Below the pieces are notes generated by a model. It did not search any database, had not been told where the DNA came from, and worked only from the letters and a program-made list of their open reading frames with translations. From contig NZ_JAFKIC010000155.1 in assembly GCF_017306585.1 (NCBI RefSeq), positions 1 to 37,495 on the forward strand: 37,495 nucleotides of DNA. The letters run 5' to 3'. The position numbers and the translations under genes were made by a program. The stretch is from Mesorhizobium sp. (GTDB taxonomy: Bacteria > Pseudomonadota > Alphaproteobacteria > Rhizobiales > Rhizobiaceae). Below, one piece after another: positions 8,912-9,330 of this stretch (position 1 is the first letter of the stretch; every line of letters starts with the position of its first letter).

Positions 8912-9091
8912 GCCCACTCCTCACGGTCGATGACCCCGGCGATGATCTTGGCGGTTTGATCGGCTTGCCGCAACCCCTGCCTCGGCTGCCCCGGCGCACG
9001 TGCGGGTGTTTCAGCCAGAACACACTCCAACGGCTTTGGCACGCCTCGGCAGGTCGCCGTCGAAAAGGAGCACTTGCCAAAGCGCAGGAAA

Positions 9092-9108
9092 GACCCCACC
9101 TTGGGGTC
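9092..9108 (+). promoter_or_regulatory. 5' leader hairpin of the extended-SD small ORF
   Basis: GACCCCA and TGGGGTC form a perfect 7-bp stem with the loop CCT, 14 bases before the extended Shine-Dalgarno. Further upstream GCTTTGGCA (9033-9041) and TGCCAAAGC (9075-9083) form another exact 9-base inverted repeat. Both point to a structured leader or a regulatory site. Confidence 0.5.
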
Positions 9109-9122
9109 GTGTTCAACGAACT

Positions 9123-9137
9123 GAAAGGAGGTGATCC
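9123..9137 (+). promoter_or_regulatory. extended Shine-Dalgarno sequence (15 bases)
   Basis: GAAAGGAGGTGATCC is complementary without mismatch to the conserved 3' tail of bacterial 16S rRNA. The next base, G, could add a G-U pair. Ordinary Shine-Dalgarno sequences use four to seven bases. It ends one base before the ATG at 9139, and the GGAGG core sits about seven bases from that ATG, which is the normal spacing. Confidence 0.85.
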
Positions 9138-9138
9138 G

Positions 9139-9210
9139 ATGTCGAGTGATTTCGTTTTCCAGAACGTGGCCTCAGCGGATTGCACTTTCGGGAAGCAGAC
9201 TTCCCGTTAA
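9139..9210 (+). CDS. 23-residue peptide preceded by an extended Shine-Dalgarno (rreB-like)
   Basis: The ORF starts MSSDFVFQNVASADC and ends FGKQTSR, 23 residues in all, closed by TAA. It has no signal peptide or membrane segment. The case for a gene is the 15-base perfect anti-16S match directly upstream, a leader hairpin, and a folded 3' region ending in a strong terminator at 9282-9320. I recall a Bradyrhizobium small mRNA (rreB) with a 17-nt extended SD whose expression is controlled at the ribosome; this looks like a unit of that kind. The peptide may matter less than the ribosome binding. It lies in the roughly 400-base gap between cfa and the TadG-like gene. Confidence 0.68.
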   Translation: MSSDFVFQNVASADCTFGKQTSR

Positions 9211-9263
9211 GGCGCGAGAAGCGCGGCGGGTAGCCCGAAGGGGTTACCGCCAGGAGCCGCGCC
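9211..9263 (+). ncRNA. structured 3' region of the small transcript
   Basis: Directly after the small ORF, GCGC-GAGAA-GCGC can pair (9212-9224). As a competing fold, GCGCGGC (9221-9227) pairs with GCCGCGC (9256-9262) and encloses a second hairpin, GGTAGCCC against GGGTTACC (9229-9248, with one G-U pair). The two GC-rich folds share bases, so alternative structures are possible. It is probably part of the same RNA as the small ORF. Confidence 0.45.
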
Positions 9264-9281
9264 ATGGACGGAAACACGGAA

Positions 9282-9320
9282 GGCCGCCGGCTTCGAAAGA
9301 AGCGGCGGCCTTTTCCTTTT
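9282..9320 (+). terminator. rho-independent terminator
   Basis: GGCCGCCGGCTTC and GAAGCGGCGGCC form a 12-bp stem with one bulged G and a GAAA tetraloop, followed by TTTTCCTTTT. This is the clearest intrinsic terminator in the window. It ends the small-ORF transcript just before the convergent TadG-like gene. Confidence 0.85.
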
Positions 9321-9330
9321 GGGCCGGAAC

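Follow-up and report, generated by a model that had tools for sequence, protein, structure and literature searches.

A conserved small RNA gene with a 15-nt anti-16S Shine–Dalgarno sequence in Mesorhizobium: a divergent member of an apparent CC2171/rreB superfamily and a candidate 30S trap or sensor

The window, by which we mean the whole 37,495-nucleotide stretch of Mesorhizobium sp. DNA that was analyzed, contains a single-copy, standalone small RNA gene at positions 9109–9320 of the plus strand. The element lies between two minus-strand genes, which by eye encode a cyclopropane-fatty-acid-synthase-like protein and a VWA/Tad-type protein. An earlier sequence-only reading of this DNA had described a 15-base Shine–Dalgarno (SD) sequence separated by one base from an ATG and a 23-residue open reading frame (ORF); the sequence bears this out, and all of the strings quoted in that reading are present where it placed them. 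The predicted product should be a structured RNA of ∼205 nt. The features of the locus are as follows.

9073–9101, plus strand: promoter-like site, with CTTGCC at 9073–9078, a 17-nt spacer and a weak −10 at ∼9096–9101
9113–9122, plus strand: C/A-rich leader TCAACGAACT, directly 5′ of the SD
9123–9137, plus strand: extended SD GAAAGGAGGTGATCC, a 15-nt perfect complement of the 16S rRNA 3′ tail
9138, plus strand: spacer G between the SD and the ATG
9139–9141, plus strand: ATG start codon, from the sequence
9139–9210, plus strand: 23-codon ORF MSSDFVFQNVASADCTFGKQTSR, given with its stop codon (9208–9210)
9146–9154, plus strand: 5′ strand of the long-range helix P1, in codons 3–6 (shuffle test, column counts and RF01867 consensus)
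9189–9206, plus strand: hairpin P3, CGGGAAG-CAGA-CUUCCCG, at the end of the ORF (RNAalifold and alignment)
9211–9263, plus strand: hairpin P4 in the 3′ UTR, with outer stem 9211–9218/9257–9263 and inner stem 9225–9236/9241–9251 (alignment)
9269–9277, plus strand: 3′ strand of P1, CGGAAACAC, directly 5′ of the terminator (shuffle test, column counts and RF01867 consensus)
9281–9320, plus strand: intrinsic terminator, with stem 9281–9311 and a T-run (alignment)

The CTTG of the promoter-like site and its spacing to a CCATCA-like stretch recur, by eye, in the Mesorhizobium-type alignment, and this spacing would place the start of transcription at ∼9109. The sequence-only reading had also included in the unit an exact 9-base inverted repeat (9033–9041/9075–9083) and a hairpin (9092–9108). 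Both are present in the window, but neither is kept in relatives and, as they fall before or over the promoter-like CTTGnC-N17-CCATCA, they are probably incidental and outside the transcript. At the other end of the gene, the strong terminator that had been proposed has alignment support. The two competing 3′ pairings also exist by eye, at 9211–9216/9258–9263 and 9221–9227/9256–9262, and the first of these is the one that entered the counts given below.

Within the window, GAAAGGAGGTGATCC is the sole exact match to the complement of the 16S tail. One more site matches with three mismatches, where about one site with up to three is expected by chance; the arithmetic expectation for an exact 15-mer is ∼7e-5 in 2 × 37,495 bases. 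The 7.09-Mb genome has a single exact copy of the 14-mer AAAGGAGGTGATCC, and the one further genomic site with a single mismatch is at chance level, the reversed control having three sites. The tail used for these comparisons was taken from plasmid-borne alphaproteobacterial 16S genes, including those of Rhizobium and Phyllobacterium (GGATCACCTCCTTTCTAAGG); it is also supplied by 9 of 30 class-level loci fetched by SD sequence, which are 16S ends. The duplex of the 15-mer with the 16S tail GGATCACCTCCTTTCT has a computed energy of −28.0 kcal/mol. Directly 5′ of the SD, a CAAC/AACA element recurs across clades, AAC at this place having also served as a locus filter in the later alignments.

Lack of conservation of the SD and ORF in related species had been named in the sequence-only reading as grounds for refutation, and this condition did not arise: in a DNA search with 9030–9325, 36 of 37 genomes of the genus, its own included, had the element (G013 lacks it). 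Shorter matches covering the leader and SD were present in 8 of 24 other genomes of the order. Searches with shorter queries extended this range: the pattern AAAGGAGGTGATCCNATGTC with at most one mismatch occurred in 188 of 397 genomes of the order (reversed control, 1), a 26-base form with at most three mismatches in 127 of 199 genomes of the family (control, 0), and the exact 15-mer in 105 of 385 genomes of the class (control, 0), some of these last matches being 16S genes. Carriers include at least Mesorhizobium, Bradyrhizobium, Bosea, Methylobacterium, Ancylobacter, Ruegeria, Loktanella, Sphingomonas, Novosphingobium, Brevundimonas and Roseococcus. The plasmid search gave no match to the element.

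The gene neighborhood is much less constant than the element. Both flanking genes adjoin it in 30 of 49 loci of the MSSDFV type, but either one does so in only 10 of 144 others. The element thus acts like an autonomous gene, staying while its neighbors change. A terminator such as the one that ends this RNA might also be expected of a leader or attenuator serving an adjacent gene; given that both neighbors also lie on the opposite strand, however, we regard such a role as very improbable.

Variation within the SD is largely of a kind that preserves its pairing. Among the matches listed, 25 of 26 single SD mismatches were A-to-G or C-to-U changes that keep wobble (G-U/U-G) pairing (P = 4e-7 against a transition-only null, the genomes being not fully independent). 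A looser search gave 32 SD mismatches, of which 24 keep pairing. All 24 of these sites recurred with the longer pattern and none of the eight pairing-breaking sites did, so the latter are probably chance matches. True exceptions occur in the 26-base family search, in which the first G is changed in four rows, the last C is changed to G in three rows and an A is inserted in eight rows; perfect pairing is therefore not universal. The predominance of wobble-keeping change nevertheless suggests that pairing with the ribosome is under selection. Moreover, the SD is generally accompanied by a start codon. Of the 30 loci fetched by the SD alone, a subset of the class-level 15-mer matches, 21 were not 16S, and these had N[A/G]TG next in 19 cases, an ATG without spacer in one and neither in one.

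At the Rfam gathering threshold there were no matches in the window. A permissive scan placed RF01867, the Caulobacter sRNA family CC2171, at 9115–9311, across model positions 1–159 of 159 and in the same place as the DNA match, with 33.3 bits (the RF01867 cut-off being 75 bits) and E values of 9.4e-6 in the window and 6.9e-5 genome-wide. The RF01867 consensus contains the SD, the start codon and helix P1. At E ≤ 0.001, the model matched 29 of 41 relatives, including 21 of 25 same-genus genomes, in which it lay at the positions of the DNA search, compared to 1 of 14 controls (Caulobacter vibrioides). Four Bradyrhizobium-like loci with a 14-codon GTG ORF (VSYLKRCHLAGIAR and kin) matched RF01867 with 42–50 bits in a scan at the loose threshold of E ≤ 1, at which 6 of 14 controls also match and weak matches mean little. 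All eight loci chosen as rreB, rreR and Sphingomonadales types matched the model over its full length, with 37–60 bits, below the cut-off, which was passed by 5 of 18 loci, including those of Methylobacterium, Bosea, Caulobacterales and Falsiroseomonas. Because a single Rfam model matches the window element as well as the loci of rreB-like and rreR-like type, they and CC2171 appear to form one superfamily that spans the Alphaproteobacteria. Peptide lengths and start codon suggest that the rreB-like and rreR-like loci are the published rreB and rreR. Our literature search found no paper joining rreB, rreR and CC2171.

Hahn et al. are said to have described rreB in 2017 as a small mRNA of Bradyrhizobiaceae with a 14-aa ORF and 17 nt of complementarity, and rreR, with 18 aa, in the Rhodobacter/Roseobacter lineage. 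They reportedly observed a GTG start, co-sedimentation with 30S subunits, weak translation and stabilization of the RNA by mutation of the start codon, and are said to have required, 5′ of the small ORF, at least 16 nt complementary to the 3′ end of 16S rRNA. The window element has 15 nt, and the base preceding them is T, not A. Like rreB, it is a short standalone mRNA in which a tiny ORF follows an extended SD directed to the 16S tail; it differs in its 23-codon ATG ORF, in an unrelated peptide and in the length of its complementarity (15 rather than the reported 17 nt). By eye, MSSDFVFQNVASADCTFGKQTSR shares no pattern with VSYLKRCHLAGIAR or VSRVILERGVGTVRGAVA beyond residue 2. The rreR RNA has the same layout, and 18-codon Rhodobacterales loci match RF01867, but rreR starts with GTG and its 3′ UTR often has CCACCUCC-like segments, whereas by eye the window has no CCUCC in the ORF or 3′ UTR. 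CC2171 shares with the window the leader of SD, start codon and ORF, the helix from the first codons to the bases before the terminator, and the position of the terminator; in the window the first codons are UCGAGUGAUUUC instead of UCUCAUUGUC, the 3′ UTR is longer and P4 is an extra hairpin. The proposal that this is a conserved, small standalone RNA gene akin to rreB thus holds. The two appear to be homologous as RNAs, matching the same model below its cut-off, but to call the element an rreB counterpart with merely a different peptide does not fit, since no peptide constraint is seen in five clades (see below). The contrast drawn earlier between its ATG and the GTG of rreB means little, as the start codon is either ATG or GTG within the superfamily.

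Rfam 15 reports one added covarying pair for RF01867 (PMC11701678). An account of M. huakuii lists the sRNA MH_s33 as RF01867/CC2171, with a 215-nt RNA-seq product, and tabulates it and both of its flanks on the minus strand (PMC5596092). Its size fits the window RNA, but the strand layout differs, the window element being opposite to both of its neighbors; MH_s33 is thus a candidate counterpart only. Two other sRNAs from the same source, MH_s25 and MH_s39, were set aside because MH_s33 carries the RF01867 annotation (PMC5596092).

Outside the Alphaproteobacteria, the same 14-mer stands 5′ of a GTG and a short ORF (9–32 codons) in Phycisphaerae (L095, L096 and L100), Planctomycetaceae (L111), Myxococcota (L147 and L175) and Betaproteobacteria (L162 and L192). 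By eye, six of these eight loci have a terminator and several have complementarity between ORF and 3′ UTR (10 bp in L096); L147 and L175 have a similar 15-codon ORF. Scanned with RF01867, three of nine non-alphaproteobacterial loci matched at E values of 0.011–0.04 and six had no match up to 0.05. Judged by eye, the loci of Planctomycetota, Myxococcota and Betaproteobacteria may indicate a strategy that is wider than the Alphaproteobacteria. Separately, the extended SD precedes a 59-codon ORF in L170 (Azospirillum sp. B21) and a 56-codon ORF in L229, both with a signal-peptide-like start, MSHGA..LFG..ALLTAG, and followed by a terminator; these are possibly RNAs of the CC2171/rreB kind that have gained a real protein.

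For the comparisons that follow, loci were grouped by the start of the ORF into SS (Met/Val-Ser-Ser and kin, the group of the window), SH (Ser-His, Ser-Asp and Ser-Thr), SHG (Ser-His-Gly, in Sphingomonadales), the rreR type (18 codons) and the rreB type (14 codons). The alignment set comprised 221 loci (L003–L223). A filter that required an SD with at most one mismatch, AAC in the 16 bases before the SD and an ORF of 9–40 codons rejected 26, some of which look like true members (Sphingomonadales, for example L079 and L128), and two more were excluded for insufficient length; a terminator was called in 176 of the remaining 193. The P1 shuffle tests used 166 loci, excluding those with terminators at least 125 nt away or weaker than −11 kcal/mol, as well as non-members or doubtful members (L095, L175, L192, L162, L195 and L210) and loci whose terminator call looked wrong (L066, L069, L071 and L073).

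One might suppose that the locus is a small-protein gene and acts through its peptide. The ORF has 23 codons in each of the 36 Mesorhizobium-type loci, where the peptides are very similar, and start codons are kept. The sequence-only reading had proposed codon conservation as a check on the ORF, but constraint on the peptide is not detectable. Specifically, pN/pS was 1.23 in the Mesorhizobium type (23 unique ORFs, interval 0.58–3.65), 0.80 in the rreR type (18 ORFs, 0.52–1.18), 1.30 in Sphingomonadales (15 ORFs, 0.88–2.26), 1.09 in Bradyrhizobium (5 ORFs, 0.30–2.58) and 0.92 in the 25-codon SH type (15 ORFs, 0.72–1.23). These values near 1 reveal no purifying selection on the peptide in the five clades, with intervals that are wide and compatible with weak selection. 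Further, the motif GGAGCA, found toward the 3′ end of the ORF, occurs in all three reading frames (frames 2, 0 and 1 in 40, 4 and 2 matches, one of these last two being the doubtful member L210). Peptides of different orders have little in common beyond Met-Ser, and codon 2 adjoins helix P1. We therefore give a peptide function little credence. The data suggest instead that what is kept is the RNA fold, the anti-16S sequence and the start codon, and not detectably the peptide.

The strongest evidence for a conserved fold comes from P1, in which codons 2–8 pair with the 27 nt around the start of the terminator. Among 47 representatives (clusters at 75% identity from the 166 loci), matched pairs of these segments gave −14.43 kcal/mol, compared to −12.01 kcal/mol (standard deviation of 0.38) when partners were shuffled within groups, and none of 10,000 shuffles reached the matched value. 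Six control segment pairs, among them reversed strands, an upstream segment, later codons and the SD, were null. Helix P1 covaries across clades. Tested alone, covariation was significant in SS (29 representatives, 0 of 20,000 shuffles) and SH (10 representatives, 13 of 20,000), and none was found within rreR (14 representatives, 4130 of 20,000) or SHG (5 representatives, 14,942 of 20,000). In column counts, which rest on a sequence-only alignment, the columns that beat shuffles at the 5% level were +8, +11, +12 and +13 in SS and only +10 and +12 in SH; the strongest, +12 in SS, was paired in 35 of 42 sequences with five pair types (0 of 2,000 shuffles). Other P1 columns were invariant or no better than shuffles. 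Within Mesorhizobium, P1 is nearly invariant, with 98.5% of cells paired and no double changes.

RNAalifold, applied to 38 divergent SS-type sequences, did not recover P1, the 3′ strand of which slips in the alignment. It predicted instead short pairings within the leader, with SD bases joined to one another or to the start region, and it found P3, with many compensatory cells. In 25 Mesorhizobium-type sequences, 96.7% of structure cells were paired, P3 had a double change in two of its seven pairs and the inner helix of P4 had compensatory change in 7 of 11. Double-change pairs in this set numbered 11, compared to 4.2 in shuffles (0 of 500), and 8 of the 11 lie in the 3′ UTR hairpin. Two loci (L034 and L035, from G016 and G020) have ∼50 extra bases inside the 3′ UTR hairpin, the outer and inner stems of which are still recognizable by eye. 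In L105, a small palindromic hairpin, ATCCTTTTAAAAGGAT, stands between the 3′ strand of P1 and the terminator, and by eye that strand is displaced but kept.

The window RNA is strongly structured (z of −4.8) and has its own terminator, as would also be expected of an ordinary base-pairing regulatory sRNA, and Rfam indeed files CC2171 as an sRNA. The SD-like stretch, the loops or the 3′ part would then pair with target mRNAs, and contact with the ribosome would be incidental. We consider this unlikely, because a target seed has no need of an SD kept with a start codon at fixed spacing and because, outside the leader, no long single-stranded stretch is kept across clades by eye. Taken together, these data better describe the locus as a gene for a divergent RNA of the CC2171/rreB superfamily, in which the RNA is conserved and the peptide is not detectably so, with the function to be surmised from its anatomy.

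The relationship of P1 to the SD was considered by computed folding. When the window RNA is free, only a minority of folds contain P1 (probability of 0.18–0.20); the figure rises to 0.87–0.97 when the leader and AUG are held single-stranded as a proxy for a bound 30S subunit. The expected number of pairs between the P1 segments likewise rose from 0.4 to 12.7 in rreR (six sequences) and from 0.0 to 10.3 in rreB (two sequences), compared to 8.6 to 11.9 in SS and 9.1 to 13.3 in SH. As P1 is already formed in the free fold of SS and SH, a ribosome-triggered switch is not general. General sequestration of the SD in the free RNA was also considered and rejected, as in several groups the SD core is less paired than in controls with shuffled bodies (0.64 compared to 0.75 and 0.76 in SS and SH; 0.69 compared to 0.79 in SHG). 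Pairing of the core was clearly higher than in shuffled bodies in rreR (1.00 compared to 0.71) and weakly higher in rreB (0.83 compared to 0.74, two representatives). One clade, perhaps of Rhizobium-like bacteria, carries an additional A within the SD (GGAAGGUGAUCC; L259–L262, L264, L267 and L270–L277, of which L275 and L276 repeat L264 and L267). Just 3′ of the stop codon, CCTTCC is present in 11 of its 12 distinct loci (L277 has TCTTCC), compared to 0 of 103 canonical SS loci, many of which are closely related Mesorhizobium types. This suggests intramolecular pairing of the SD in that clade, with an apparent co-change of SD and anti-SD.

The anatomy of the element points to a model in which the RNA docks free 30S subunits strongly while the helix after the start codon hinders initiation, making it a 30S trap or sensor. 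We give this reading a probability of roughly 0.55. Strong docking of 30S subunits would be expected on the leader and SD, since together with the start codon these present a C/A-rich stretch and bases complementary to almost all of the 16S 3′ tail. The region that the 30S subunit would have to hold single-stranded includes the start of P1, at nucleotide eight of the ORF. As the 15-bp duplex stops a single base short of the start codon and P1 closes a few nucleotides past it, both would hinder accommodation of the start codon and entry into elongation, so that strong docking and poor initiation are to be expected. The RNA might thereby hold or sense free 30S subunits, as a trap or buffer with ribosome-dependent stability, and the peptide would be incidental to this. 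We infer from sequence that the gene is transcribed in the host strain, that 30S subunits dock on the RNA and that initiation is blocked, and the same holds for its physiological role.

An alternative is that the RNA is a translational sensor of altered 30S subunits, lacking bS21 or having an unusual 16S 3′ tail. A special subpopulation of ribosomes would read the extended SD, with the act of translation or the stability of the RNA serving as the signal. Such a role would account for an SD and start codon that are both kept when the peptide is not. However, no ribosomal protein is encoded at the locus, and ordinary alphaproteobacterial mRNAs use SDs, unlike those of Bacteroidota, which makes this alternative improbable. 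Precedent for it is given in a study of Flavobacterium johnsoniae, in which an mRNA with an extended SD is preferentially translated by ribosomes without bS21 (PMC9976891). The rpsU mRNA described there has, like the window element, an exceptional SD through which the state of the 30S tail could be reported, but it encodes the ribosomal protein bS21 and comes from a different phylum (PMC9976891).

The 30S trap or sensor reading can be carried a step further, although more tentatively and with clearly less confidence: CC2171, rreB, rreR and the window element may be a single RNA, spread across the class and itself the gene product, in which docking would favor the closing of P1 and the level of free 30S subunits could be read out as RNA stability or occupancy. 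We know of no established function for the CC2171 sRNA family. This family and rreB, a small-mRNA gene that has been puzzling, seem to be one and the same, in which case rreB should be viewed less as a tiny protein gene than as a ribosome-engaging RNA, and work in Caulobacter, Rhodobacter or Bradyrhizobium would inform much of a bacterial class. A dedicated bacterial RNA that holds or senses free 30S subunits would then be a directly testable idea.
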